In this document: positions 4,358 through 18,799 of the stretch, piece after piece
Layout of the letters: each line of letters starts with the position of its first letter
How positions within the stretch are numbered: position 1 is the stretch's first letter
Origin: a virus
DNA: 21,597 nucleotides
Reading direction: 5' to 3' (one strand)
Virus record (IMG/VR): IMGVR_UViG_3300027859_000091
Coordinates: 1-21,597 of that record
Notes under the pieces: model-generated
Database searches by the model: none
Told to the model about the DNA's origin: nothing
Seen by the model: the letters and a program-made list of their open reading frames with translations, nothing else
Made by a program: the position numbers and the translations under genes

Positions 4358-4365
4358 TATTTATA
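4358..4365 (-). promoter_or_regulatory. T4-type late promoter for gp13-gp17
   Basis: Exact TATAAATA on the minus strand, in the 33-base gap between the 1012-aa fibre gene and gp13, followed by GAATATAATAGGAATAAACA and then the gp13 ATG. It is the only sizeable gap before five packed genes, so it probably drives the whole 13-14-15-16-17 unit. The box is followed by GA, as at the three other intergenic boxes in the window. The late sigma and clamp system it would need is encoded elsewhere in such phages. Confidence 0.8.
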
Positions 4366-4370
4366 AGAGT

Positions 4371-7300
4371 TTATCCTTCTAAATCTTTTATTCTTGCTTC
4401 TAATTCTTGTACTGTTTTAACTAAATAAGCTATTATACCAAATGGAGCTATACCTTTTTCACCGTCTACTCCATGAACTTCGTTTGGTAATACTGTTTCT
4501 AGTTCTTGAGCTATAAATCCTGCTACGCCAGTACCCATTCCATGTAGATGAGCATCTTCAAGTTCATCTTTTTTCCAATCAAAAGCTCTTGGCCTTAAAT
4601 CTTTTATTACACTCCATCCATCTGTAATATCTGTAATATTTTCTTTTCTACTTATATCTGAACTAAAACTTGGACCTGAAAAGTTTCGGTTTGTATACAA
4701 ATCATTCTGATTATGATTATACCTTATATAACCTGGGTCAGCTGAAGCTCCAGAAAAGCCATCAGCAAAGTTTAAATATCCGTATCCAGAAGAACTAGTT
4801 AATATTGTTAGTGTGGCATTGCCAGAAGTACTACCAAAAACTCCGTATGAAGGTGAACCTGAGCCAACAGATGCCATTTGACCTACTAATAAATGACCAT
4901 CTTCTGTAAGACACATTTTTTCTCTTGTATTACCAGCGCCTGTCACACTAAATCTTAATTGAGTTTTTTGATCACCGCCCGTATGGCTTACAAATCTTGC
5001 ATGCATTCCTGCTCTATGACCACTATTATCTTTGAATAATATCGCAGCCATATTATTATTTGTTGTGCCAGCATTTTGAACTGTTATACTTGGCACGTTA
5101 CCTGGTCCAATAGCTGTCCATAAATCTCCAGCCGAATTGTTAGTAGCTTTTACATGGAATTGAGTATCAGGTCCGCTAGCTGCACCAACCATTAATCCTG
5201 TATGATTTAAAAATGCTCTTACTGTACCACCAGTTGAAAACGCTAATTGACCACCATTTCCTTCAGTATCCTGTGCATTTATTTCCGCAGTACCACTATG
5301 TTGACCACCAGCTATATCGCTTCTTGACCTTATTTCTAATCCTCTTCCAGTTGTTCCTGTAAATACAGCATGTGAAATAGTGCCACTACCGGAGCCACCT
5401 CTTACATCTAATTCTTTAGTAGGTGAGTTTGTACCTATACCAACTCGCCCGTTAGTACCATCAACATAAATTCTATCATCACCACCAGCTCTTATTAGCC
5501 AAGCATCGGTTTGAAATCTCATATAAGTATTAGTATCATCATTGTGATAAATATATTCATTAACACCTATATCACCTGCAACATCTAATGTATATGTTGG
5601 AGAATTAGTTCCAATACCAACTTTACCATCACTTTGAATTTTCATTTTAGGTGGGGCGAATGCTACACCAAAATGTAAAGCACCATCACCATAGCCATGT
5701 CCACCACCAGTAGATGAAATATCCCATGCAACACCATTAGTAGCATCATTTTCAATAATTAAAGATACATTTGCTTGATCGCCTTGAAGCTTTATACCAT
5801 CAGTATTTGTTAAACCTGTTAAATGTAATTTATTTTGAGGATTATCAGTACCAATACCAACTCGTCCATTAACTAAATCAAAAATAACTCTATCAGCATC
5901 AGTATCGTATCTATTGGCAAAGTACATTTTTGCACCAGCTCCGCCGCCGGTCACTCTTATACTTGCTCCTTCTGTACTGTTGTTGTTGTAAAAGTTTATT
6001 CTTCCTGTTTGGTCACTTGCTGTAGCAAATGTAAGCGTTTCTGCATTGTCTGTATAATCACCTATTTGAAGCTCTGTTCCTGGATTAGTAGTTCCAATTC
6101 CAACTCTACCTTCTTTTAAAGTAAGTGTTTTAGTTTGAGCTCCTGCTGCATAAGTGTACATGTCTACAGAAGAATCTTCTGACCCATTACTTACATCAGT
6201 CATTTTACCTATAGCTAAAAAGGCCTCTGTAGCATTGCCTGCATCATCATCTCCATACATGTATATTCTACCTACTTCATCGTTATCTGCAGGTGAAGCT
6301 GAATCTTTTTTAAGTATTAAATATGGAGGAGTAGAATCAGCATTTGTATTTGTTATAGTTAATTTAGGTTTACTACTTGTTCCGCTAGTAAGAGTAATAT
6401 CTCCATCAACAGCTAAACCTGTGGAATCAAGGGTCATATAGTGGTCATTACTAGCCTGATTTGTAAATCTATGCGTATTAGTTTGATAATCCAATCTACC
6501 AGAGTTATTAGAACCTATTGAACCGTATGTTGTACTTCCATCATTACTCTTCCATTGAACAAAAAAGTGATTATCTGATGAACGTCCTTGTAATCGTAAC
6601 CCTGTAGTAATTCCAACTGGTTTTATCGTGAGTGCACCATCATTAGCAATACGCATCACCTCGTTAGTAGCAGTTTTAAAAGTTATAAGGTCACCTTGAT
6701 TTTGCCCAAATAAATTTATAGCTGTTCTGTCATTTGCTAAACCAGACGCGTTTAGTCTTAACCAACCATTTGCACCTGCACCGTTTAAATAAACAGCGTT
6801 ATTTGATGCATAGTAAGAAAGAGTAGCATCTTGATTATATATAGAAGTATTAACACCTAATTTTAAACCTGGTAATGTAGCTTGATGCGAAAAATCAAAC
6901 TCATCATTAGAAGCATCCCATAAAATAGTTGCGTCATTTGATGCATCAACAGCATCTTGTATTGTAATACCTGCTCCACCTGCATTAGATGAAGTATCAC
7001 TGGAAGCATGATAGTTAAGTGTTATGTTTTTATCTGTGACATTTAAATTTGTTGTATCTAATTCGGTAGTCGTTCCACTTACTGTGAGATTACCTGATAC
7101 TGCAAGATTACCTGTGACTGATGCACCAGTACTTGTTGTGGCTAGTTTTGCATCACCTGCATGGTAAAGAGTAGTAGCACCACCATCTGACATAGTGATA
7201 TAACTCTGTGAGCCATCAGCGTTATTTATATTAAAATTACCAGCACGAATAATTAAAAGTCCACTGCCTGATTCATATATGCGACTATGAGTTCCATCAC

Positions 7301-7409
7301 TGTAAATCTGTAGGTCATTGTCTGTACCTAAACGCAATCTTTCGTTATCAGCAAAGTCTACATGAGCTGATTTATCTAAAAAACTTGCTGGTATTTTTGT
7401 TAGTGCCAT
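4371..7409 (-). CDS. Tail fibre-like protein with C-terminal S74 intramolecular chaperone (1012 aa)
   Basis: Probable trimeric tail fibre or adhesin. The N-terminus differs from the other fibres here: it opens MALTKIPASFLDK, then a segment with RLRLGTDNDLQIYSDG and NLAVSGNLTVSGTTTE common in marine phage structural proteins. The shaft has four beads of the type VGIGTxxP...L. The last 96 residues form a Peptidase S74 (endosialidase-type) chaperone: SDISRKENI with the Ser917-Lys922 spacing of five seen in the self-cleaving dyad, GFIAQELETVLPNEV, and a C-terminal coiled coil (LVKTVQELEARIKDLEG). Known members trimerise the fibre and then cut themselves off before the serine, which would leave about 916 residues. 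It begins ten bases after the 94-aa gene, with AGGA seven bases before the ATG. The role is inferred from family; the receptor is unknown. Confidence 0.88.
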   Translation of the reverse strand: MALTKIPASFLDKSAHVDFADNERLRLGTDNDLQIYSDGTHSRIYESGSGLLIIRAGNFNINNADGSQSYITMSDGGATTLYHAGDAKLATTSTGASVTGNLAVSGNLTVSGTTTELDTTNLNVTDKNITLNYHASSDTSSNAGGAGITIQDAVDASNDATILWDASNDEFDFSHQATLPGLKLGVNTSIYNQDATLSYYASNNAVYLNGAGANGWLRLNASGLANDRTAINLFGQNQGDLITFKTATNEVMRIANDGALTIKPVGITTGLRLQGRSSDNHFFVQWKSNDGSTTYGSIGSNNSGRLDYQTNTHRFTNQASNDHYMTLDSTGLAVDGDITLTSGTSSKPKLTITNTNADSTPPYLILKKDSASPADNDEVGRIYMYGDDDAGNATEAFLAIGKMTDVSNGSEDSSVDMYTYAAGAQTKTLTLKEGRVGIGTTNPGTELQIGDYTDNAETLTFATASDQTGRINFYNNNSTEGASIRVTGGGAGAKMYFANRYDTDADRVIFDLVNGRVGIGTDNPQNKLHLTGLTNTDGIKLQGDQANVSLIIENDATNGVAWDISSTGGGHGYGDGALHFGVAFAPPKMKIQSDGKVGIGTNSPTYTLDVAGDIGVNEYIYHNDDTNTYMRFQTDAWLIRAGGDDRIYVDGTNGRVGIGTNSPTKELDVRGGSGSGTISHAVFTGTTGRGLEIRSRSDIAGGQHSGTAEINAQDTEGNGGQLAFSTGGTVRAFLNHTGLMVGAASGPDTQFHVKATNNSAGDLWTAIGPGNVPSITVQNAGTTNNNMAAILFKDNSGHRAGMHARFVSHTGGDQKTQLRFSVTGAGNTREKMCLTEDGHLLVGQMASVGSGSPSYGVFGSTSGNATLTILTSSSGYGYLNFADGFSGASADPGYIRYNHNQNDLYTNRNFSGPSFSSDISRKENITDITDGWSVIKDLRPRAFDWKKDELEDAHLHGMGTGVAGFIAQELETVLPNEVHGVDGEKGIAPFGIIAYLVKTVQELEARIKDLEG
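7223..7230 (-). promoter_or_regulatory. Possible internal late-promoter box
   Basis: Exact TATAAATA inside the 1012-aa fibre gene, about 180 bases after its start codon. It encodes ordinary residues (part of NINN). It is followed by AC rather than the GA of the intergenic boxes. In AT-rich DNA a few chance matches are expected in 21 kb, so this is probably not functional; it is the only intragenic minus-strand exact match I found by eye. Confidence 0.2.
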
Positions 7410-7418
7410 ATTTTATTC

Positions 7419-7703
7419 CTATGGTTTATTTGGCCATACTACTTCTGCTAAGTTATTGTATGATTTTGTTATGTCTCTTAATGCTTGTCTATATGTCTTC
7501 CAAGCATCTGTTATAGGATAATCTGAATTTGCCATAAAATCTGTTTCTGCTAATTTTCTATTTCTTTCATCTCTTAGTTGAGCCAAATCTTCTGCTGCTC
7601 TTAACTCAAAGAAAGCATATCTATCATCACCAGATAAATCTGTATCAGTTCCGTCTGGATTTGGAAACAATACTTGGTCGTTGTCTAATCTATGTTTTGC
7701 CAT
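7419..7703 (-). CDS. Small tail/fibre assembly chaperone-like protein (94 aa)
   Basis: Residues 41-79, with LRDERNRKLAETDFMANSDY followed by PITDAWKTYRQALRDI, have the pattern of the phage tail assembly chaperone family (Pfam Phage_tail_APC; typical form RDxxLxxTDWxxxxDxPLT...YRQALRD). These small proteins are common next to tail-fibre genes. The N-terminal 35 residues carry a short NPDGTDTDLSGDDRYA stretch. The ATG overlaps the stop of the 1038-aa fibre gene by one base (TAATG), with GGGGA eight bases upstream, so it is very likely translated together with that fibre. I infer that it helps fold or attach the 1038-aa fibre; that partner assignment rests on position only. It is not membrane-bound or secreted by any visible signal. 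Confidence 0.78.
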   Translation of the reverse strand: MAKHRLDNDQVLFPNPDGTDTDLSGDDRYAFFELRAAEDLAQLRDERNRKLAETDFMANSDYPITDAWKTYRQALRDITKSYNNLAEVVWPNKP

Positions 7704-10700
7704 TAACTCATCCCCGCTGCTGCAGCGTTCATTTCGCCACTAATTAATTCTGCTGCCGATGGTTGAGAACCATCAATTCTATATAATCTAGGGCATGCCC
7801 AATGTAATTCTGTTCCATCATTTGCACTTGGATAATATAAGTATGTTCTATGTTGAATGTTATGTGATTGGTTGGAAGAAGTACCAGCTCTGAATATATT
7901 TACACCACTAAATTGTCCAGAATGGTGTTGTAGTCTTGCTCCTGTATCTGTTCTAAATAATCCTTGATTTCCCATTGCTACATTTGATGTCATATGCCAT
8001 GCGTGAATTGGTTGTATATCTACACACCAAACATTTTGTGGAAGAGTTCCAGTACTGGCAATTGTCATATATGGATTACCAAGAGAATTTCCACTTGTGT
8101 CATGAACGCCACCAGTTCCATGATAATATGTGCCTGTATTAGCTGAGCTTACTCTTTTTACCCATAATACAAATAGGTATGAGTAATTATTATCAATAGA
8201 TATAGTACCTGTTCCCCAACCACCAGAACCGCCTGTGCTTCCTGCAGAGATACCAGCCCATAGCCATTCAGTACATCCACTTGGACCCTCACCTAGTTTC
8301 CATTTATTGGCAGATGAGTCGCCATTTAATCCATAAGATAGGCCATAAGCACTAGCAAAACCGGAAACACTGTCTCCATGTTGATAAGATGTATTACTTC
8401 TTGCTAAGTCCCATTCCATTACATTTGGTGTAGCTTTACCTGCTATCTTTCCTGACTTTTGAGTAGCATTAACACTACCCATAGTAGCACCTACTAAAAC
8501 AGATGAATCTGATTGGACTGATAAACCTCTTACACCTGCAGTTGATAATTCTATAGTATCTGCTGCAGGGCTATATAATCCAGTATTATCATCTCCCTGG
8601 AACGTATATACTGGACCTGCTGCTGTTGATGTATTCTTTGCTAAAACTCTGCCTGAATCTTCTACTTCTAAATAACTAGTACCACCACCATAGATATATG
8701 TATGATGACCACCGGTTGGAACTCCTAAACGAAGAGGTCCATTAAACCTTATTATTTCTCTCGTAACTGCTCCACCACTTGCTTTTGACATATTTACAGC
8801 AGTATCTCTACCTGTATGACCTATATCTAAACAATCGTCAACAACACTACTTGTACCAATAAATACTTTACCGTTTTCATTGATTTTCATTCTTTCTGTA
8901 GGAGTGAAAGCATCACCTGCTGTTTTGCTAGAAGCCGCATTTGTAAAGAATTGTATTATTCCACCATTGCTGCCTCCTCCTGTTCCATGTACACGTATTG
9001 CTGCAGCACCAAAAGTGCCTGTTGAACCTACTTTATACCCTGAAGCACCAGCATTTCCATAAAAATTACTACTAATCCATGTAGAAGCATTACTGTATTG
9101 AGAAAAAAGATTAGAGTAGTTAGTCCAAGTTAGTCCTCTTCCTTGAGTTGCAACTCCTAAATCAAGAGTATTTAAAGGGTCATCAGTTCCAATTCCGACT
9201 TGGCCAGTTTGTTGAATTCTCATTCTACGAGTTGGATTATAATCTGGATTATCAGCGTCTGTACCACCAGTAAAGAAATCTATGTTTGCATACGGTCCAG
9301 TTGATTGTCCATCATTTCTGTAATTTTTTATTTCTAAGTTAGCGTTACCATTACCCCAACCAATTGAAGCACCCTTTGCTCCATCACTGTCTCTATATAT
9401 TTCAAGACCGACATTATCATTTCCTGTATTTCTTACTTGTATACTTTGGTTTGTAGTTTTTACATGAAGTGGAGAGTTTGGATTAGTCGTTCCAATACCA
9501 ACATTGCCACCATCTTTAATAGTAAGTCTTGGACTTCCTGATGAAGCGTCCTCGTAAAAAGTAAAATCTGCTGCGCTGTTTCCTGAGTTTTTAGATAAAC
9601 CAATTCCCCATTTAACAGTCCCTTGGTCAGCAAACTTAACCCAACTTACGCCTGAACCGTTGCTTGTTGAATCTAATTTAAGAACACAATCGCCGCTTTT
9701 AGCATCTAAAAGTTCTTGAGGGTTGTTGTTTCCAATTCCAACAAGACCACTCTGATCGATACGCATATGCTCTGTACTACCAACTGTAATATTTCTACCA
9801 AAGACCAGCTCCCCACCAGCATCGTTAAAAATATGCCAATATGAAGATGAATCAGATGGTGTTAATACTATACCATAGTCACCACCACCTCCATATCCAC
9901 CAATTTGCATATTACCACCACGAATATCTAACTTCATTAATGGATTATCAGTTCCAATACCAACGTCGCCATTAGCTTCAATACGCATTTTTTCAGAGTA
10001 TCCACCTGAGCCTCTAGTATTAAATGCTATATCACCATAATGATTTGTATGGTCTCTATTATGTGAATTTATTGAAACTGTTTCTCCAGCTCCAGCTGAT
10101 TCAAAACTTAATTTAGTAAAATTATTTGCTGTATTATTTGCATTTTGTATAACTACTGATGGACCAGTACTTCCAATAGAAGTTTGTGTTCCATATCCTT
10201 TAAAGTAAGCTACTCTGCCATCTGTTCCATCTGTCTGCATTCCTTTAACTTGTAAAGTAAAATTGTTTGCTGAAGGAGTTTGTTTTATTCCTAACCTTCC
10301 TAAAGTATCGAGTGTCATTTGAGGCGCAGCATTATTCGTAGAAAATGCTAGGTCATGATTTGTAAATGTAAATATTTCTCCTCTTGGTCCATCACCAAGT
10401 GAATGCATTCTTAAATCAACTAAATTACCAGAAGAATCTTTCGATCGCAAGCTAAGTGCTGACCTTGTATTATTACCGGTAACGATAAGTTCTTGTATTG
10501 TTGTAGCTGAATTCGTAACTTGTATTTGGCCAGTAAAATCTGGATTTGCCAATGGTGCTTTTGATGCTATTGAGTTTGTGACAGTAGTATTAAAATCGGC
10601 ATCATCATTTAGAGCGGCTGCAATTTCATTTAGAGTATTCATTGTGCCTGGAGCGGAATCAATTAAAGCATTTATATGTGTATGTACAAAAGCGGTACTT

Positions 10701-10819
10701 GCAGCTGATGTATCATTATCAGTACTACTTTGTGTAGGTACTACAATACCTTGTACAGATAAATTACCATTTGCATCTGCTACTATTTCTGCTAATCTTC
10801 TATTTTTTGAATATGCCAT
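7703..10819 (-). CDS. Tail fibre-like protein with unassigned C-terminal domain (1038 aa)
   Basis: Probable long fibre or adhesin subunit. Residues 28-97 are the shared N-terminal domain (PTQSSTDNDTSAASTAF, then LIDSAPGTMNTLNEIAAAL), also seen in the 754, 758 and 920 aa proteins. The middle contains about five VGIGTxxP-type beads (for example DVGIGTDNP, NVGIGTTNP, QVGIGTDDP). The last 240 residues (about 799-1038) are different: rich in aromatic residues, Gly and His, with YLFVLWVKR, WCVDIQPIHAW, HNIQHRTYLYYPS and LHWACPRLYRIDGSQPS. I cannot assign this domain to a family; a receptor-binding role is inferred from its terminal position. There is no S74 chaperone; instead a small chaperone-like gene follows directly. 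A late-promoter box lies five bases before the ATG, and no good ribosome site lies between them. Confidence 0.82.
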   Translation of the reverse strand: MAYSKNRRLAEIVADANGNLSVQGIVVPTQSSTDNDTSAASTAFVHTHINALIDSAPGTMNTLNEIAAALNDDADFNTTVTNSIASKAPLANPDFTGQIQVTNSATTIQELIVTGNNTRSALSLRSKDSSGNLVDLRMHSLGDGPRGEIFTFTNHDLAFSTNNAAPQMTLDTLGRLGIKQTPSANNFTLQVKGMQTDGTDGRVAYFKGYGTQTSIGSTGPSVVIQNANNTANNFTKLSFESAGAGETVSINSHNRDHTNHYGDIAFNTRGSGGYSEKMRIEANGDVGIGTDNPLMKLDIRGGNMQIGGYGGGGDYGIVLTPSDSSSYWHIFNDAGGELVFGRNITVGSTEHMRIDQSGLVGIGNNNPQELLDAKSGDCVLKLDSTSNGSGVSWVKFADQGTVKWGIGLSKNSGNSAADFTFYEDASSGSPRLTIKDGGNVGIGTTNPNSPLHVKTTNQSIQVRNTGNDNVGLEIYRDSDGAKGASIGWGNGNANLEIKNYRNDGQSTGPYANIDFFTGGTDADNPDYNPTRRMRIQQTGQVGIGTDDPLNTLDLGVATQGRGLTWTNYSNLFSQYSNASTWISSNFYGNAGASGYKVGSTGTFGAAAIRVHGTGGGSNGGIIQFFTNAASSKTAGDAFTPTERMKINENGKVFIGTSSVVDDCLDIGHTGRDTAVNMSKASGGAVTREIIRFNGPLRLGVPTGGHHTYIYGGGTSYLEVEDSGRVLAKNTSTAAGPVYTFQGDDNTGLYSPAADTIELSTAGVRGLSVQSDSSVLVGATMGSVNATQKSGKIAGKATPNVMEWDLARSNTSYQHGDSVSGFASAYGLSYGLNGDSSANKWKLGEGPSGCTEWLWAGISAGSTGGSGGWGTGTISIDNNYSYLFVLWVKRVSSANTGTYYHGTGGVHDTSGNSLGNPYMTIASTGTLPQNVWCVDIQPIHAWHMTSNVAMGNQGLFRTDTGARLQHHSGQFSGVNIFRAGTSSNQSHNIQHRTYLYYPSANDGTELHWACPRLYRIDGSQPSAAELISGEMNAAAAGMS

Positions 10820-10824
10820 ATATC

Positions 10825-10832
10825 TATTTATA
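10825..10832 (-). promoter_or_regulatory. T4-type late promoter five bases before the 1038-aa fibre ATG
   Basis: Exact TATAAATA followed by GATAT and then ATG. In T4 the box covers about -13 to -6, so transcription would start at or next to the A of the ATG, giving a leaderless mRNA. The only purine-rich ribosome-site candidate (ATAGG) lies before the box, 13 bases from the ATG, and would be absent from an mRNA made from this promoter. It could still serve read-through transcripts. The extended form (TATAAATAGA) matches the boxes before gp13 and the 758-aa gene. Confidence 0.65.
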
Positions 10833-10833
10833 C

Positions 10834-11082
10834 CTATCCAGTTGGAACTTGCACACTTGTATCATCTGGATCGTTCATTCTATCATATATATCTTCCATT
10901 GTCACTGGTGTTATATTACCACCTACAAGTTCATATGTAAATGTTGTATCTAAATTCTCAACAGTTGTACATGTACTTCCAGCTAGATGTGCTCCCAATA
11001 ATTCATCACCATTATCTACTTCATTATTATAAATTGCAAGAATTGTGTTATCCTTTTTTATTATATGCGCGTATTGTGTCAT
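10834..11082 (-). CDS. Small protein of unknown function between fibre genes (82 aa)
   Basis: I do not recognise this 82-residue protein. It is acidic, has no signal peptide, membrane segment or cysteine motif, and contains an N-terminal strand-like segment (YAHIIKKDNTILAIYNN), a central GAHLAGSTCTT stretch, and an acidic end with DIYDRMNDPDD. It is well expressed by appearance: its ribosome site is TAAGGAG, the best in the window, five bases before the ATG and overlapping the stop of the 920-aa fibre gene. That placement suggests a product that works with the 920-aa fibre, such as an assembly factor or small fibre-associated protein, by analogy with the 94-aa chaperone-like gene after the 1038-aa fibre. 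It ends 14 bases before the next fibre gene. Confidence 0.75.
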   Translation of the reverse strand: MTQYAHIIKKDNTILAIYNNEVDNGDELLGAHLAGSTCTTVENLDTTFTYELVGGNITPVTMEDIYDRMNDPDDTSVQVPTG

Positions 11083-11087
11083 AGTTT

Positions 11088-11094
11088 CTCCTTA
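11088..11094 (-). promoter_or_regulatory. Strong ribosome binding site overlapping a stop codon
   Basis: TAAGGAG on the minus strand: the TAA is the stop of the 920-aa fibre gene, and GGAG sits five bases before the ATG of the 82-aa gene. It fixes the start of the small gene and implies reinitiation by ribosomes finishing the fibre gene. Confidence 0.8.
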
Positions 11095-13854
11095 AGATAC
11101 AAATTTTCCTCTACTTTCAGCAAGTGATATTGTTTTAAAATGATACTTACCACCATTAGTATATCCATCGACTGCAGATGCAGAAGTTCCAGAGCCATAA
11201 TATCTATTAGCTCCATAATTTACTTCTACCACTACATAATTTCTATAATATGCGCTAGTAGAATTAAAGGTTAATTCACATTTATAAATGCTTTGTCCTG
11301 CATGGTCTGTTCCAGTATCTGATACATTACCTTTAGTAATACTACCTGGAGCTGCACCCCAACTAGTATTATTACTGTAAGCAGTCACTTCACTTAAATA
11401 TGCTGTACCTGCTGTCATTCTAAATAAATATTCTCTATAACCACCATTAAAATATGTTGTATATAATCTAAACCTACATACTGGGTATTCACCCCAATGG
11501 CCTGAACTATAAACTGTTAAAAACTGTGTGCTCGCTCCTGCATTAGTAGGAGAAGTGACTGAAGGTGTTCTAAATATTGCATGAGTACCAAACCCAGCGC
11601 CATTTGCACCAAGATAACTTCCTCCACAATCAATTGCACCTGGTCCCATATCACTATGAATCTCTGAATATCTTGTTTTAACAACGTTTTGATGGTTAAC
11701 AACAACACCATTACCAGCTCCATTACCAAAAGAAATTGTATTATCATCCTGGTCAGCACCAGGACTTGCACTTATTCCGTGATAGGACAGTGTACCATTA
11801 TTTGCTTTTAGTTTAAATTGTTGATGAATTACATCACCATTACCATTGCCTTCAATTATTAATCCAGCAAGTGAATTTGTAGCTCCGTCAATATGCAACA
11901 TAGCATCTGGACTATTTTGTCTAATTCCAACTTTAGCACTTGCGCTTCCAAGTAATACAGTACCATAACCTTCTCCAACTTGAAGTGTACTTCCATCAAC
12001 TTGACCTTCTAAGGCTCTATGACTTGTGCCACCTTCAGTACCAAAATATAATCGTTTATTACTATTTGCAATTTTTACTCCGCCATCAACTGTTAGCTTT
12101 TCTTCTGGAGCATCACAATTAATACCAACGTTGCCAGCATTTGAAAGAAACATTGCGGTACTTAATTGGTCTCCAGTATTAACTTGAAATCTTAAGTCTC
12201 CTTTAGCCTGTCCACCATCAACAGCTTGTTGTGATAATATAGCAGCTCCGCTATTTCCATTTCCAAGAGCACTAGTTAAATCTCCACCACCAAATCGTAT
12301 AGCTATTAAATCATTATAATTCTCACCAACTATACCGAGAGTTGGGTTAGAATCTGCATGAACAATAAGTTCGTGTGCTGGTGTATTGGTTCCTATACCA
12401 ACTCCTGTACCATTTTTAATATATAAATCATTACCTGCAGAGCTATCAGTACCTGTTGTAAATCCTATATCTCCTGCAGCTTTACTATAAATTTGTCCTC
12501 TTAATGCTGTACCTGCGTTATTGAAAAATTGAAAAAAGGAATAATCATCAGCACTTCTTGCTCTCAGTGCAATAGCATTTGCGCCACTATCAGAAGTAAT
12601 AGTAAGAGGCTTATTTGGATTACTAGTAGCAATACCAACATTATTAGTACCACCATCAACAAATAGCATATGTGTATTACTATCAGACTCTACTCTAAAG
12701 TCTGCTGTAGTTCCATCTTCATTAAATACAGTTGCTGAACCTGCTAAACCTGAATTTAAAATACCATCAGTTATACGTGCTACTCCTGAAAGGTAGAGGT
12801 CTTTGAACTTTCTAAGTGAAGCACCAATATCAACAACACCATTAGATGCACCACCTGTGACTGTTGACATAGGCTGAATTACATTAGAACTAGCATTGAA
12901 TTCTAAAAATACATCTCCTCCTCCAACTGCTAAACTTCCTGCAACAACACCAATACTTCCAACTGTTGTATTGTCTTTTCTAAATAATGCAATATCTCCA
13001 TCACTGTTTCGTCTATTCAATCTTAGTGGATAAGTACCATCTGCTGTAGATTCAACTCTTGTGCCTAACTCTACACCATCTGTTGCAATATTTGAAGTAG
13101 TCTTACCCACAAGCAGAATACCGCTATTAGTAATACGCATTCTTTCTTGCCAACCACTATTATATACCTCAAATGCAATATTACCACTTGCAGTTTTTGC
13201 ACCAATTACAGCAGTTGTTTCGTCAGTTCTTCCTCCTAACCAAACACCACTTACGCTTCCTGAATTTGTTCTTCCAAAATCTGCTATTTGTCTTACATTA
13301 GTTGAACCAGAACCAGTTCCAGCACCTACAACTCTAAGTCCACCATAAGCACTACTTGTTGAATCTTCAATATGTAATGGTGCACTAGGATTACTCGTAC
13401 CAATTCCAACATTAAAATCATTAAAGTTTATTGTTCCAACTGAGCCAGTTCCTCCCATATCGAAGATAAACCCGTTAGAAGCATTGCCGTATATTTCTAA
13501 TCTATTATTATCAGCACTATCAAATATTTCTAGCTTATTAATTCCAGTAATATTATTATCGCCCATTATTATATTGCCGCTCATAGTACCACCAGCAAGT
13601 GGTAGTTTTGCTGCGATTGCATTAGTCGTTGTTGTTGCATAATTTGCATCATCGCCTAATGCGGCCGCTAATTCGTTTAAAGTATTTAATGTAGAAGGCG
13701 CTGAATCAGATAAATTTGCGAGTGCAGTAGTCACATAAGCTGTAGTAGCTATTTTTGTACTATTATCCGAAGCACTTTGTGTCGTGGTCGTAGCACTAGC
13801 TGGTAATGTTAAATCATCAGCTAATATATGTCCTTTTACTTTTGTTAGTGCCAT
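11092..13854 (-). CDS. Tail fibre-like protein with unassigned C-terminal domain (920 aa)
   Basis: Probable fibre or adhesin. Residues 21-93 are the shared N-terminal domain (TTQSASDNSTKIATTAYV, then DSAPSTLNTLNELAAALGDD), closest to that of the 754-aa protein. From about residue 243, LLVGKTT, LNRRNSDGDIALF and VDIGASLRKFKDLYLSG form a module shared with the 758-aa protein. Around five VGIxxxxP-type beads follow. The last 190 residues or so (about 729-920) have no beads and are rich in Tyr, Thr and Gly (FLTVYSSGHWGEYPVCRFRL, REYLFRMTAGTAYLSEV, KYHFKTISLAESRGKF); I cannot assign a family and infer a receptor-binding tip. It lacks an S74 chaperone and is followed by a small 82-aa gene. A variant late-promoter box (GATAAATA) stands just before the ATG. 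Confidence 0.82.
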   Translation of the reverse strand: MALTKVKGHILADDLTLPASATTTTQSASDNSTKIATTAYVTTALANLSDSAPSTLNTLNELAAALGDDANYATTTTNAIAAKLPLAGGTMSGNIIMGDNNITGINKLEIFDSADNNRLEIYGNASNGFIFDMGGTGSVGTINFNDFNVGIGTSNPSAPLHIEDSTSSAYGGLRVVGAGTGSGSTNVRQIADFGRTNSGSVSGVWLGGRTDETTAVIGAKTASGNIAFEVYNSGWQERMRITNSGILLVGKTTSNIATDGVELGTRVESTADGTYPLRLNRRNSDGDIALFRKDNTTVGSIGVVAGSLAVGGGDVFLEFNASSNVIQPMSTVTGGASNGVVDIGASLRKFKDLYLSGVARITDGILNSGLAGSATVFNEDGTTADFRVESDSNTHMLFVDGGTNNVGIATSNPNKPLTITSDSGANAIALRARSADDYSFFQFFNNAGTALRGQIYSKAAGDIGFTTGTDSSAGNDLYIKNGTGVGIGTNTPAHELIVHADSNPTLGIVGENYNDLIAIRFGGGDLTSALGNGNSGAAILSQQAVDGGQAKGDLRFQVNTGDQLSTAMFLSNAGNVGINCDAPEEKLTVDGGVKIANSNKRLYFGTEGGTSHRALEGQVDGSTLQVGEGYGTVLLGSASAKVGIRQNSPDAMLHIDGATNSLAGLIIEGNGNGDVIHQQFKLKANNGTLSYHGISASPGADQDDNTISFGNGAGNGVVVNHQNVVKTRYSEIHSDMGPGAIDCGGSYLGANGAGFGTHAIFRTPSVTSPTNAGASTQFLTVYSSGHWGEYPVCRFRLYTTYFNGGYREYLFRMTAGTAYLSEVTAYSNNTSWGAAPGSITKGNVSDTGTDHAGQSIYKCELTFNSTSAYYRNYVVVEVNYGANRYYGSGTSASAVDGYTNGGKYHFKTISLAESRGKFVS
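13576..13794 (-). repeat. Shared fibre N-terminal domain, copy in the 920-aa gene
   Basis: Encodes residues 21-93. It is similar in DNA and in protein to 16204-16422 in the 754-aa gene (long stretches such as the coding for TTAYVTTALANL and STLNTLNELAAALGDDAN are shared, with mainly third-base differences). More diverged copies are in the 758- and 1038-aa genes. It could serve as a target for recombination between fibre genes. Confidence 0.75.
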
Positions 13855-13859
13855 TTATC

Positions 13860-13867
13860 TATTTATC
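13860..13867 (-). promoter_or_regulatory. Variant late-promoter box before the 920-aa fibre gene
   Basis: GATAAATA, one base from TATAAATA, followed by GATAA and the ATG. The layout (box, GA, start codon five bases on) is the same as before the 1038-aa gene. An AAGGA overlaps the upstream edge of the box and could act as a ribosome site for transcripts coming from further up. A first-base T to G change may weaken the promoter, so this is a tentative call. Confidence 0.4.
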
Positions 13868-13878
13868 CTTCTAGTATC

Positions 13879-14169
13879 TTATCCGTTTGCTTCGTTTACT
13901 GCTTTTTTAGCATTCTTAACTGTTGTTGTCCAGACTGCTGCAGCTATGCCTTTAACCTCTGAACTTTCACCGGATACGTCTGTATCTGTATGTGTCCATT
14001 TACCATCTTCATCTTTTACAGATAATATGCATTCTAATGTGTGTCTATGAAAAGACCGTGTAAGTTCTACTCCATCTTCTTCAATAACAGTAGCTGTTCG
14101 CACCTGTATAGATTTGTAGTCTCCAACAATTTCTATTTTGTCTTCTTCTGTTCTTTTTGTTATTGCCAT
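13879..14169 (-). CDS. Conserved small protein of unknown function (96 aa)
   Basis: A 96-residue protein of a type I recall as a conserved hypothetical in marine phages near fibre genes, with no known function. Visible features: MAITKRTEEDKIEIVGDYKS at the start, IQVRTATVIEEDGVELTRSF (21-40), a conserved-looking FHRH (40-43), and a C-terminal helix-rich end (GIAAAVWTTTVKNAKKAVNEA). No signal peptide, membrane segment or metal motif is seen. Its ribosome site AAAGGAA lies nine bases before the ATG. It follows the 754-aa fibre gene after a 45-base gap and precedes the 920-aa gene by 24 bases. Position suggests a fibre-associated or assembly role for the 754-aa protein; this is inference only. 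Confidence 0.8.
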   Translation of the reverse strand: MAITKRTEEDKIEIVGDYKSIQVRTATVIEEDGVELTRSFHRHTLECILSVKDEDGKWTHTDTDVSGESSEVKGIAAAVWTTTVKNAKKAVNEANG

Positions 14170-14170
14170 T

Positions 14171-14209
14171 TTATTTTTTCCTTTGTCCGTGCCTATCTCC
14201 GATAGACAT
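14171..14209 (-). other. Gap with 12-codon mini-ORF and small hairpin
   Basis: The gap between the 754-aa gene and the 96-aa gene contains ATG plus 11 sense codons and TAA (MSIGDRHGQRKK), starting two codons and two bases after the fibre stop. Its first bases form a perfect five-base stem, CTATC-GGA-GATAG. There is no ribosome site before this ATG, and no U-run after the hairpin, so it is neither a clear gene nor a clear terminator. I keep it as an unexplained element. Confidence 0.25.
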
Positions 14210-14214
14210 AATTA

Positions 14215-16479
14215 TTAAACTCTATAAGTGCCACTTAGGTGTAGCTCAAATGTTGTATGGTCCATAGTATTATAAGTCCAATACGCTGTACTTCCACTAT
14301 TCAGATAGACTCCTTGTAATTCAGAGCCATTTGTTCTAAAATGCGCTCTTCCATTTGCATACCCACCTAATGCATAACAATCTCCTCCTATTACTATAAT
14401 TTCTCTTTGCCCCGTATCACTTGAATTTGTAGCTGAAAAGGGTAAGCCAGTTATCTTCCAGGTTGCTCCAGGTAATGAAGCTACTGTTGCAGTTATCTTT
14501 GCATGTATATGGACTAAATTACCAATCTTCGTATATATTCCGTATACACTTATTGAATTCGTTGTTATATTACTACCAAGGGCTGGAGTCCAAGTACCTT
14601 CTTCATAATCGTCAAGTAGTTCTGAAGTCATGCCACTTGCGTCTGAAGTAGCAGCAAAAGATATACCTTTACCTGATGTGCTAAAATTGAGATTTCCACC
14701 TGTTTTAATATTACCTGCTGCATAGATAGAATTTAGTGCACCACTATCTTGCATCACATTTAGTACAGTAAAGTTTTGGAAACTACCCGATATTCCATTA
14801 ATAGAACCTGAACCCGCTACTCTTACAGCCGAAGGATTACCAGAGTGGTTAGTTTTTACTTCAAAAGCATTGTTATCTATACCTGTGATTATATGCGACT
14901 TAGATGTAAGCACCCCAGTACTACTAATACGCATCCTTTCTACGCCAGTATAGTTACTATTTGAAGATTGAGTCCTAAATATAATTTTGTTGTTAGACCC
15001 AGTAGTATGACCTACGCAGTCAATATAAAGTCCATCTATTGCTCCGAATGTAGTTTGTTGAGAGTTTGTGCCATCAAGAACAACAGCGTTACTAGTTCCT
15101 CCTGCAATGTTTAAAAACTTATTCCAACCAGCACCACTTGAAGGATTGTTCGTTCCAAGTCCAACGTTACCAGTATCAGTAATATGAAAATCTCGCCTTC
15201 TTGTACCCATTGCACCAGCTGAATGGTAATTAATAGCATATATCTCATCACCTAGAAATATTTCAAACGCGCCTTTTGAATTATCATCAGCTTGATGTCC
15301 ACCGCTGTAATAGTAGTTATTTGAAATATAACCACCACCAACAAAGTTGCCCATATTAATATTAGTACTACCTGATGCTCCTTTAAGAACTATTTGATTT
15401 GTTCCACCATTACTAACTAAAAGTCTTCCAGAAGAATGTGGAGTCCCGCCAATACCAACATTGCCTGTGTCTGTAAGAGTCATTGTAATAAGAGATGCAT
15501 TTCTTCCAAACTTATGATTTAGAGCATAGTATTGCAGGTCTAATTGATTAACTCCTGCTTGGTCACTTCTTATTTCACTTCTGTTATTAGAATTGTCAAA
15601 TAATAAAGCTAATCCTTTTGTAGTAGTAGTTGCACCTTGTAGTCTAAGATGTCCTGAATCAGCTTTAATCTCAAGTTTATTAGTAGGACTATCGGTTCCA
15701 ATACCAACATTACCGGCACTTGTAATACGCATCTTTTCGTCATTTGCAAAAGTGACATTTGCGTCATCTCCGTTTGAGTCTAAAGCAAAAATTAGTGAGC
15801 CTATACCATAAGAACCTTCTCGTTTTAATCCTATAGCTGCTTTAGTTCTTCTTGTACCACCATGTACTCCAAAATATAAAGGAGCAATATCATTATTATA
15901 ACCCCTCACATTGTGTATCTTAATACCGCCTTCTTGACTACCTTCACCTGTAATACTAAAGTTAACGTCAAGTTTATTATCGGGGTCAACTTCTCCTATA
16001 CCAATATTATTCGAGTCACTAAAAGTAACGATTGGAGTAGTAACACCAGAATCATAAAAGTTTAAGTCTCCATTTGCATTAACGCCTAACTGCCATGTTT
16101 CTGTACCACTATTTTCTTCAATAGATATTGCGAAATGATTACTATCTGATTTTATATCTAAGGGTGAGTTAACAACTGAACCTTGATAACTACCTATATT
16201 AACACCACCTGTTAATGTTCCACCAGCGAGTGGTAGTTTTGTAGCAATACTATTAGTGACTGTTGTACTAAAATTAGCATCATCTCCTAAAGCTGCGGCT
16301 AATTCATTTAAAGTATTCAATGTACTTGGTGCGCTATCAGCCAGATTGGCTAACGCAGTCGTTACATAAGCTGTAGTTGCTACTTTTGTAGTATTATCTG
16401 AAGCACTTTGTGTTGTCGCAACTGAAGCGCTTGGTAATACTATATTATCATCTAAAAGTTTTACTTTTGTACTTGCCAT
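14215..16479 (-). CDS. Tail fibre-like protein with EEGTWTP-type C-terminal domain (754 aa)
   Basis: Probable fibre or adhesin. Residues 20-92 are the shared N-terminal domain (ATTQSASDNTTKVATTAYV, then LNTLNELAAALGDDANF). The shaft has about four beads (NIGIGEVDP, NVGIGTDSP, NVGIGGTP, NVGLGTNNP). The last 133 residues or so (622-754) begin DDYEEGTWTPALG and continue YGIYTKIGNLVHIHAKI and ITGLPFSA; this pattern recurs at the C-terminus of many phage fibre and tailspike proteins and is thought to be a beta-rich terminal domain. No S74 chaperone is present. It starts two bases after the 758-aa gene's stop, with AAAGGA inside the end of that gene serving as ribosome site, so the two are in one operon. 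The 96-aa gene follows. Confidence 0.85.
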   Translation of the reverse strand: MASTKVKLLDDNIVLPSASVATTQSASDNTTKVATTAYVTTALANLADSAPSTLNTLNELAAALGDDANFSTTVTNSIATKLPLAGGTLTGGVNIGSYQGSVVNSPLDIKSDSNHFAISIEENSGTETWQLGVNANGDLNFYDSGVTTPIVTFSDSNNIGIGEVDPDNKLDVNFSITGEGSQEGGIKIHNVRGYNNDIAPLYFGVHGGTRRTKAAIGLKREGSYGIGSLIFALDSNGDDANVTFANDEKMRITSAGNVGIGTDSPTNKLEIKADSGHLRLQGATTTTKGLALLFDNSNNRSEIRSDQAGVNQLDLQYYALNHKFGRNASLITMTLTDTGNVGIGGTPHSSGRLLVSNGGTNQIVLKGASGSTNINMGNFVGGGYISNNYYYSGGHQADDNSKGAFEIFLGDEIYAINYHSAGAMGTRRRDFHITDTGNVGLGTNNPSSGAGWNKFLNIAGGTSNAVVLDGTNSQQTTFGAIDGLYIDCVGHTTGSNNKIIFRTQSSNSNYTGVERMRISSTGVLTSKSHIITGIDNNAFEVKTNHSGNPSAVRVAGSGSINGISGSFQNFTVLNVMQDSGALNSIYAAGNIKTGGNLNFSTSGKGISFAATSDASGMTSELLDDYEEGTWTPALGSNITTNSISVYGIYTKIGNLVHIHAKITATVASLPGATWKITGLPFSATNSSDTGQREIIVIGGDCYALGGYANGRAHFRTNGSELQGVYLNSGSTAYWTYNTMDHTTFELHLSGTYRV
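16204..16422 (-). repeat. Shared fibre N-terminal domain, copy in the 754-aa gene
   Basis: Encodes residues 20-92, the best match to 13576-13794 in the 920-aa gene. The two copies lie about 2.6 kb apart in direct orientation, so recombination between them would delete the 96-aa gene and fuse the 754-aa body out, leaving one hybrid fibre. Confidence 0.75.
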
Positions 16480-16481
16480 TT

Positions 16482-18758
16482 TTATCCTTTAAGTGCTGCC
16501 ACTTCAGCCTCTAATGTTTCTATTCTTGTAATTGCTTCTTTTAATGCTTGAGTTAATACAGGAGTTAATTTTCCATAATCTACCATTTGTGGTTTTATAT
16601 GTGACCCTTGCTCAGTTGCATCTTTTTCTCCAAATACAGCTTCCGGTATTACTTCATCTAATTCATGAGCAATAAATCCATGTGTTAAAATACTATCTGG
16701 GTCAGATTTCCATGTAAAGTTTTTTGGTTGTAATAATTTAACTGTATTAATACCACCAGACATAGGTACAATATTTTCTTTTAATCTATAATCTGAAGTA
16801 CCTCCATAATTTGTAGTATTCGTCGTAGCATGTGAATTAATTTCACCACAAATATCGTTTGAGCCATCTATGAATCTCATCATATTGGCGCCACCACCTG
16901 TATCAGAATTTCTTAATACCATTACATGAGGTCCACCACCTTGTGAGTGAACATGTAATCCGCCGTCTCTATGGTCTGTTCCATTTAATGAAGTTGTTGT
17001 ACCTATGAAAACGGTTTGTCTATCTGAATCAATTCTCATAGCTTCTTGTAAATCAGTACCAAAAATTAAGTCACCATAGCTTGTAGGACCTGCAGTTTCT
17101 GTGACAATGTAAGCATCATAATCTCCAGCTGTAGAAAGCTTTTTATAGTCAGCATGTCTGGTTATGTGTACATGAAGTTGAGCCTGTGTACTATTAGAAC
17201 CACCCCTACAAGTAATACCTGATTTCCATAATCCACTATCCGGTGCTACCATATCTATCCATGGATGTGCATCAGTTAAACTTAACATTGGAGTAGTAGC
17301 AGTTTGAGTAGCTTTTAATTCCATGTGTTGAGTTCCACCAATTTCCCATCGATGGTCTGAACCTCCAGAATTATACATTAATACTGTATTAGAACCTCTT
17401 ATCCAATTTGAATTATTTGTTCCTGCAGTACCTTCGCTATTAATAGTAATTCTTGCATCAGTACTATTAGGTGCAACATCTAATCTATTATTTCTAATTT
17501 CTAAAGCGCCAGTGCCACTTGCTTGAAATCCAAATGAATTGGTATTATGTCTATATTCCATATAACCAGAATATCTATCTCCACCTGAAGTTGCATCACC
17601 AAAATATAACGCGCCTACAGAACTTGTTCCAGAATAAAATTGCATTGATGCATGACCAGTACCATCTCCTACTTGAATTTTTGGAGTACCACTTAAAACA
17701 TTTAAGTTTGTAGTAGTACCACCAACTAGTAAATCAAAATTGCTATCAATTGCGACTTTTACAGTACCACCACTATTTTTAAATGTATAATTAGTTGCTC
17801 TAAATCCCATTGTACCCCAAGCAGAACCTGGATTATTATATGCACCAATCTGTCCCACAACATCAAGGTTGCCGGCCATTTGTATATTGCCACTTAAGTA
17901 AGCATCTTTATATCGAAGACTTGGTAAACCAATATCTACTAGATTGTCTGTTGCAGTTCCAGAATTGTTTACAGGAATATAATATCCTTCTCCTAAACGT
18001 AGTCCTGTGTGATTTGCAGCAGTACTATACATCAGTATGTCATTTGTTCCTGCTATAGCAATACTTCCAATTACTGTGTCATCTTTTGCAAAATGAGCAA
18101 TGTCTCCCTCTGAGCTTTTTCTATTAAAATGAGCAGAATAATTACCATCTGCACAAAAGAAATTTCTTCCATCTGTTCTGATACTAGTACCTACTGCATT
18201 GCTGTTAGCTGTTGTTTGCCCAACTAATAAATTTCCTGTGAAAGTTGCTGCCTTAAAAGATATATCTCCATCACCTTCAATTTTACCAATAAGACCATTA
18301 CCATCGCTTCTTAATTGTAAGAAGTCAATTGAATCTGCACCTGTAGAATCTTTTCTAAGTGTTAAACTTGCATTGGATGTACTAGCACTTTTTAAATATG
18401 CGTAGTCTTGTCCTATCTGACTACCACCAGTTATATTGATGTCAGGCGTTGTTATTGTTGTAGTAAATGTTGGGCTATCTATAGGTGCTTTTAAAGCTAT
18501 ACTATCAGTGACAGTTGTACTAAAGTTTTCATCATCTCCTAAAGCTGCAGCTAATTCATTTAAAGTATTAAGTGCGCCAGGAGCCGAATCGACTAATGAA
18601 TTTAATTCTTGTTGAACAAAGGCTGTTGAAGCAATAGCCAATGAATTCGTACCAGATGATTGTGTAGTTGCAATTCCAGTAATAAGTCCAGTAGAAGTAA
18701 TACGCTCTACACCTGCTACTGTTAGACCATTTTTTATTTCGAAATTTTTATTTGCCAT
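16482..18758 (-). CDS. Tail fibre-like protein with C-terminal S74 intramolecular chaperone (758 aa)
   Basis: Probable trimeric fibre. Residues 30-96 hold the shared N-terminal domain (TTQSSGTNSLAIASTAFV, then SAPGALNTLNELAAALGDD). Residues from about 175 hold the module LLVGQTT, FNRKSSEGDIAHFAKDD and VDIGLPSLRYKDAYLSG, also in the 920-aa protein. Canonical VGIGTxxP beads are missing; only LLVGGTT and FIGTTT-like forms occur. The last 104 residues are a Peptidase S74 chaperone: SDYRLKENI with Ser655 and Lys660 in the spacing of the self-cleaving dyad, HGFIAHELDEVIPEAVFGE, and a coiled coil (ITRIETLEAEVAALKG). Cleavage would leave about 654 residues. First gene after a late promoter that overlaps the previous stop. 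GGAGAG is 12 bases before the ATG, a long spacing. Confidence 0.88.
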   Translation of the reverse strand: MANKNFEIKNGLTVAGVERITSTGLITGIATTQSSGTNSLAIASTAFVQQELNSLVDSAPGALNTLNELAAALGDDENFSTTVTDSIALKAPIDSPTFTTTITTPDINITGGSQIGQDYAYLKSASTSNASLTLRKDSTGADSIDFLQLRSDGNGLIGKIEGDGDISFKAATFTGNLLVGQTTANSNAVGTSIRTDGRNFFCADGNYSAHFNRKSSEGDIAHFAKDDTVIGSIAIAGTNDILMYSTAANHTGLRLGEGYYIPVNNSGTATDNLVDIGLPSLRYKDAYLSGNIQMAGNLDVVGQIGAYNNPGSAWGTMGFRATNYTFKNSGGTVKVAIDSNFDLLVGGTTTNLNVLSGTPKIQVGDGTGHASMQFYSGTSSVGALYFGDATSGGDRYSGYMEYRHNTNSFGFQASGTGALEIRNNRLDVAPNSTDARITINSEGTAGTNNSNWIRGSNTVLMYNSGGSDHRWEIGGTQHMELKATQTATTPMLSLTDAHPWIDMVAPDSGLWKSGITCRGGSNSTQAQLHVHITRHADYKKLSTAGDYDAYIVTETAGPTSYGDLIFGTDLQEAMRIDSDRQTVFIGTTTSLNGTDHRDGGLHVHSQGGGPHVMVLRNSDTGGGANMMRFIDGSNDICGEINSHATTNTTNYGGTSDYRLKENIVPMSGGINTVKLLQPKNFTWKSDPDSILTHGFIAHELDEVIPEAVFGEKDATEQGSHIKPQMVDYGKLTPVLTQALKEAITRIETLEAEVAALKG

Positions 18759-18791: not shown

Positions 18792-18799
18792 TATTTATA
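18792..18799 (-). promoter_or_regulatory. T4-type late promoter for the 758-aa fibre gene
   Basis: Exact TATAAATA followed by GAATAATAAAACG, with the 758-aa gene's ATG 33 bases downstream. The TAA inside the box is the stop codon of the upstream fibre gene. It probably drives 758-, 754- and 96-aa genes, with read-through further on. Confidence 0.8.

Follow-up and report, generated by a model that had tools for sequence, protein, structure and literature searches.

Phage protein family phrog_6228 as a candidate partner of one fibre-tip domain in aquatic phages

The maturation of phage fibres by separate factors in trans, as an alternative to a chaperone in cis, is an accepted idea in several phages (PMC7289586; PMC10579305; PMC9608196). 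The genes of such chaperones are usually situated directly behind the fibre genes (PMC6116203). In Pam3, the beta domain of gp25 binds a tumour necrosis factor (TNF)-like domain while its C-terminal helices trimerise, and the protein was not detected in the virion (PMC9608196). Trans chaperones that resemble intramolecular chaperones have also been proposed to act as transient caps (PMC10579305). Here, we describe a 21.6-kilobase (kb) record of a T4-like myovirus (IMG/VR record IMGVR_UViG_3300027859_000091, positions 1 to 21,597), referred to as a whole as the window. Three of its five fibre genes are each followed by a small gene, encoding 96, 82 and 94 amino acids (aa). The 96-aa protein, which belongs to the family phrog_6228, is the main subject of this work; this family is a near-constant companion of one tip domain across aquatic phages and is a good candidate for its folding or capping partner.

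Pairing of the 96-aa family with one tip domain

An earlier note on this DNA had proposed that a fibre carries either a built-in Peptidase_S74 (S74) chaperone or a small partner gene, and never both. The layout that it described is borne out by Pfam and by the coordinates of the open reading frames (ORFs): the fibres of 758 and 1012 aa are the only ones that end in S74, and the 754-, 920- and 1038-aa fibres, which are without S74, are followed by the genes of 96, 82 and 94 aa, respectively. The chance of such a perfect separation of two S74 from three other fibres by the small follower is 1/10. The window alone therefore proves little, and for this reason its relatives were surveyed.

The 754-aa fibre (14215..16479, on the minus strand, as are all the window features positioned in this text) has PHROG tail fibre matches and no Pfam match. 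Its C-terminal tip domain of about 130 aa (14218..14631), with the motif LLDDYEEGTWTP ... YTKIGN.V ... GLPF ... Y near the end, recurs in fibres whose genes precede members of the 96-aa family; the 96-aa gene of the window lies next to it at 13879..14169. A single-sequence scan of viral contigs with the 96-aa protein yielded 80 loci that were taken for the survey, with about 90 contigs carrying the family. It is also present in 68 of the phage records searched, which include podo-, sipho- and myoviruses and whose hosts are among Prochlorococcus, Synechococcus, Pelagibacter, Roseobacter and Methylophilales. A scan of cellular genomes gave four contigs, filed under metagenome-assembled genomes. 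The ORF upstream of the family is nearly always fibre-like, and in 57 of 72 nonredundant upstream ORFs, the motif YEEGx[WYF] is located 105-145 residues before the C-terminal end.

The independent test was a search of viral contigs with the tip domain alone, which avoids ascertainment by the small gene; LDDYEEG was required and the 80 best matches were kept. For comparison, a set of 57 fibres was found by S74 alone. The 96-aa family stands directly behind 71 of 87 complete tip-domain fibres as against none of the 57 S74-ascertained ones (Fisher 8e-26), and within the same contigs, behind 57/64 tip-domain fibres as against 0/22 S74 fibres (9e-15); these p-values are indicative only, as related sequences are not phylogenetically independent. 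Ten of the remaining 16 tip-domain fibres have the family elsewhere in the fetched stretch, in some cases after an inserted gene. In L169, for instance, a 154-aa gene (4434-4909), HNH-endonuclease-like by eye, lies between the tip-domain fibre and the 96-aa partner.

The avoidance of S74 fibres, which the earlier note had read from five genes, is found among the relatives as well. Of 146 ORFs that immediately precede a gene of the 96-aa family, one has S74 by Pfam, and of the ORFs preceding the APC (94-aa) or 82-aa families, 0/39 do; none of the 57 S74 fibres is followed by any of the window's three small families. In the sole S74 case (L216), the S74 gene has a tip-domain fibre on one side and the 96-aa gene on the other. 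The S74 calls in the fibre survey relied on a profile of sequences related to the S74 of the 758-aa fibre; this profile missed L216. The counts out of 146 and 39 come from Pfam itself. No surveyed fibre combines the tip domain and S74 in one protein. The S-B05 'endosialidase' upstream of a 96-aa gene was considered as a further S74 exception and dismissed, as this protein is without S74 and carries the tip domain.

The tip domain opens with LDDYEEGTWTP and has YTKIGN.V and GLPF conserved; a highly variable half follows, with a near-invariant tyrosine close to the C-terminus. More than 500 relatives are found in viral contigs. Among PDB sequences, only 6F7D/6F7K are significant relatives, representing the C-terminal domain of the tailspike gp208 of phage Dettilon; an attribution of this tailspike to an Acinetobacter phage was wrong. 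Foldseek adds NMV_189 and, weakly, the receptor-binding heads of lactococcal phages and adenovirus knobs, and because of these matches the domain is read as a putative TNF-like head. In Pelagibacter phage HTVC119P (L159, 5164-8001), the tail-fibre region around KLDDYEEGTWTP seems to occur in two copies. The annotated fibre stops within the first, and a copy in another frame continues through a complete tip domain almost as far as the 96-aa gene. This seems to be a duplication, a frame switch or an assembly error.

The small proteins and their possible role

The 96-aa protein matches phrog_6228 over residues 1-94 (profile positions 4-86 of 92, E 9.6e-23), a family whose listed function is unknown, and it has no match in Pfam or NCBIfam. 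The 94-aa protein is, as the earlier note had suspected, a member of Phage_tail_APC (PF16778, 57.2 bits against a cut-off of 26.6, E 1.5e-15), with a solved relative in PDB 2KZ6 (E 9e-8). Nothing significant was obtained for the 82-aa protein in Pfam or PHROG; its family has two other copies, both in viral contigs, and none in phage records, and a profile of the three rows added no copies. Neither the 96- nor the 82-aa protein matches the curated Pfam fibre-assembly families (Tfa and the like). PDB sequence searches with these two proteins and with the 96-aa profile gave nothing significant, and comparison of the profiles of the small families indicated no relation among them.

The AlphaFold2 model of the 96-aa protein (predicted local distance difference test, pLDDT, 96.8) has five strands, followed by helices at 70-79 and 82-95. 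Among predicted viral proteins, its third-best match, a weak one, is the 104-aa I6NTM7 from the Burkholderia phage AH2 (E 0.015). This entry fits AH2 gp45, which in the 50 kb viewed is the sole product of that length; its gene lies right behind the AH2 tail fibre, and the protein has a hairpin-like segment and a coiled coil.

Two traits of trans chaperones are found in the 96-aa protein: its gene lies immediately downstream of the fibre gene, and its predicted structure has a beta region with C-terminal helices. Given that the strands and C-terminal helices match the plan of Pam3 gp25, that transient caps have been proposed and that chaperone genes usually lie behind fibre genes, we favour, with a probability of about 0.62, a modular plan: every type of C-terminal tip would have a maturation aid of its own, and that of the tip domain would be the 96-aa protein, acting as a minimal trans chaperone or as a transient cap. 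In such a plan, two of the window's tips would be served by the S74 intramolecular chaperone in cis, and the other three by the trans-acting product of a small gene that probably shares a transcript with its fibre. The dedicated partner of the LDDYEEGTWTP TNF-like tip domain would be the 96-aa protein, a pairing that is seen as adjacency. Its strands may embrace the conserved root of the tip domain, and its C-terminal helices could help to hold the three chains while the tip trimer forms. A similar role may be played by the 94-aa APC protein for the 1038-aa fibre, and probably by the 82-aa protein for the 920-aa fibre.

Several observations weigh against this plan. No significant match of the 96-aa protein to a solved structure, including any chaperone, was found, and for six of the 87 tip-domain fibres, the fetched stretch contains no homologue of the 96-aa protein. 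The tip of the gp208 relative has been crystallised (6F7D/6F7K) and the 96-aa family is reported from no Salmonella phage record, and so the fold as such may need no partner. A read-through model of tip, linker and 96-aa protein as a single chain and not as a trimer, with stop codons as glycine, reached a predicted template modelling score (pTM) of 0.51; the 96-aa part folds well and the tip only partly, and their relative placement is uncertain, with no confident docking. A mirror-tree test of partner against tip distances gave no signal (Mantel r -0.02), which is expected for a generic partner and equally for no interaction. For the 82-aa family, the evidence consists of three copies in all.

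It is conceivable, and in our view unlikely, that the 96-aa protein is instead built permanently into the tip and remains in the virion as an adhesin or clasp, in a position comparable to that of the gp38-type tip adhesins. Its adjacency to the tip-domain fibre in the 71 cases would agree with this, as would its small, stable predicted fold; however, its conservation is higher than that of the tip (48% vs 30% identity on average) and it has no glycine-rich loops. Moreover, in nine of the 12 locus pairs whose partners are at least 90% identical, the fibre C-terminal half, with the variable tip, is less than 40% identical. Near-identical partners with unrelated tip halves are the opposite of what a specificity-carrying adhesin would give, and they indicate that the partner is not adapted to the variable face that meets the receptor; together with the higher conservation, this argues against a specificity-bearing adhesin. 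The same swapping of tip halves between near-identical 96-aa genes would suit hitch-hiking, that is, a recombination cassette of tip domain, stop codon and small gene that moves together while its products make no physical contact. The nearly identical junctions with differing fibre ends at L028, L044, L035, L164 and L016, the lack of docking in the read-through model and the Mantel r of about 0 point the same way. Nevertheless, the pairing holds across the podo-, sipho- and myovirus records and all the hosts named above, and the two genes stay close despite an inserted gene (L169, L168, L202, L198 and L216). Such proximity, kept across gene insertion and across phage and host types, suggests selection for both products, and hitch-hiking without contact is judged to be even less probable than a permanent tip part.

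The literal rule of the earlier note, under which every fibre would have exactly one of the two, a cis S74 or a small trans chaperone, fits the five window fibres and the window's three small families. As a universal rule it is already contradicted, since there are S74 fibres with small followers and fibres with neither, and we consider it highly improbable. A gene of less than 150 aa follows 26 of the 57 S74 fibres, and in 15 of these cases it is DUF7936. In L085, a near relative whose APC gene is 88% identical to that of the window, the 928- and 942-aa fibres have neither S74 (Pfam) nor a small gene behind. The slot after the APC gene is likewise variable, as it holds the S74 fibre in the window, a non-S74 fibre with a 96-family gene in L086 and a fibre with neither in L085. 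The proposal that trans factors replace the cis chaperone survives in so far as the three families avoid S74 and sit with fibres, but the 96-aa family tracks one type of C-terminal domain rather than the general absence of S74. What matters is the kind of tip that a fibre has: C-terminal domains of a given type are accompanied by a partner of their own, S74 is not strictly exchanged for just any small gene, and there is evidence that the opposition of S74 and small genes is a by-product of this pairing.

Other small genes were observed in these loci. DUF7936 (PF25590, phrog_7802), of about 100 aa and seen in loci L092-L146, also stands behind the 96-aa gene in four loci and is possibly another fibre-associated family; it has no detectable relation to the 96-aa family (hhalign probability 0.4%, and no Pfam match either). 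The 96-family gene of L086 (9407-9619) is divergent and is overlapped by the end of the non-S74 1025-aa fibre, in the slot of the window's 1012-aa fibre. In L084, a 65-aa gene of no known family (6799-6996, MKMVFKKETGEMVAYGTG...) lies behind a 1081-aa non-S74 fibre and is a possible further partner family.

Going beyond the modular plan, phrog_6228 may be a general-purpose trans clamp for a swappable TNF-like tip, recognising the invariant LDDYEEG root, so that the variable half could be freely exchanged with the same chaperone. The root and the partner gene would then be the two recombination anchors of a host-recognition cassette common to podo-, sipho- and myoviruses of marine bacteria. This extension is tentative, and we would sooner doubt than accept it.

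Gene order, proposed transcription units and cassettes

On the minus strand, the window contains a truncated repetitive structural gene, the five fibre genes with the three small genes, and then gp13-, gp14-, gp15-, gp16- and gp17-like genes. Its best gp15-type matches are cyanophages, at 42% identity. The fibre island adjoins the neck genes and matches the 'host recognition cluster' described for pelagimyophages, a variable fibre-containing island beside the neck genes (PMC7029224). The repetitive gene at the right edge (18795..21368) lies outside the fibre/partner pairs, as the earlier note had said of it; its 857-aa form needs correction, since the frame is open to the window end for at least 933 codons without a stop, which makes its GTG start an artefact and the gene a truncated one.

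The 758-aa fibre (16482..18758; S74 at 16635-16796, PF13884 E 2.8e-11, 44.0 bits) is followed after 2 nucleotides (nt) by the 754-aa fibre, and the 1012-aa fibre (4371..7409; S74 at 4473-4661, E 7.9e-13, 48.9 bits) by the gp13-like neck gene. In both, the domain lies near the very C-terminus, above the curated cut-off of 22, and the SD...K motif can be read (SDYRLKEN and SDISRKEN). These are the only two PF13884 matches in the whole record, and no Pfam match to S74 was found in the 754-, 920- and 1038-aa fibres up to E 1. Both fibres appear to be ordinary Peptidase_S74 members with nothing apparently different, and from the family, trimerisation and self-cleavage of the two tips would be expected.

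The 920-aa fibre (11092..13854) shares 76% identity over its C-terminal 535 residues with a 1025-aa fibre in L083, where it is also followed by an 82-aa homologue (85% identical), and the N-termini differ. The 82-aa gene (10834..11082) belongs to no known family, and its other copies are each separated by 9 nt from a preceding fibre that shares the C-terminus of the 920-aa one. Similarly, the C-terminus of the 1038-aa fibre (7703..10819) is kept together with the APC gene (7419..7703 in the window) in L085 and L086, with differing N-terminal parts, and is 93% identical in L151 and L152 (from the same contigs as L085 and L086), both followed by APC. As the C-termini and the partners are conserved jointly while the N-termini differ, fibre ends and partners travel together. 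Good ribosome sites, which the earlier note had seen for all three small genes, are present for the 82- and 96-aa genes (AAGGAG- and AAAGGA-type, respectively); the 94-aa ATG shares one base with the stop codon of the 1038-aa fibre.

The octamer TATAAATA, which we take to be the late promoter octamer of T4-type phages, occurs four times in the window, always on the coding strand and three times in short intergenic gaps: before the 758-aa gene (18792..18799), the 1038-aa gene (10825..10832) and the gp13 gene (4358-4365). A late-promoter-like GATAAATA precedes the 920-aa gene (13860..13866). The number of octamers is not above chance (4 vs 4.6 expected); their placement is suggestive of late promoters. 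The units would be [758, 754, 96], [920, 82] and [1038, 94, 1012], each small gene being with its fibre. At L028, L044, L035, L164 and L016, ATAAATA encloses the fibre stop codon and the spacer of about 55 nt to the 96-aa gene is nearly identical. The same heptamer is seen in 19 of 140 fibre/96-aa junctions, in 15 of them at the stop codon, and is absent from the control stretches, which suggests that these junctions may hold the partner's own late promoter and a recombination joint.

Comparison with known systems

A literature search found no paper naming phrog_6228 or DUF7936, and the pairing of phrog_6228 with the tip domain was not found in the papers covered; in those on P-SCSP1u and Melnitz, the passages searched do not mention the small protein. 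Through this pairing, a widespread family of unknown function gains a specific, testable partner in one fibre-tip domain, and the results suggest that tips of very different kinds can share a single conserved partner. The receptors of SAR11 and picocyanobacterial phages are poorly known, and if the 96-aa protein is a chaperone, it would tell what to co-express in order to make and study the receptor-binding tips of these phages.

The S74 fibres of the window resemble the K1F endosialidase and the T5 L-shaped fibre in their C-terminal domain, without apparent difference. The 94-aa protein matches Phage_tail_APC (PDB 2KZ6), except that its N-terminal 40 residues lie outside the Pfam match. The Alteromonas phage pairs V22 gp26-gp27 and A5 gp8-gp9 (PMC7289586; PMC10579305) are similar to the proposed plan in having trans chaperones that resemble intramolecular domains and possibly act as transient caps, and the cis or trans alternative is discussed for them; however, the relatives of V22 gp27 have a C-terminal DUF4376 region, to which the window's small proteins have no Pfam match. 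In Pam3 gp24-gp25 (PDB 7YPX, PMC9608196), a fibre with a TNF-like tip likewise has its own chaperone, composed of a beta domain and C-terminal helices. Pam3 gp25 has 162 residues and resembles Mu Tfa, whereas the protein described here has only 96 residues and no match to a Pfam assembly family. Thus, the general principle of a cis chaperone or a trans partner is already known, and what is new is the strong pairing of phrog_6228, a family of unknown function, with one tip domain.

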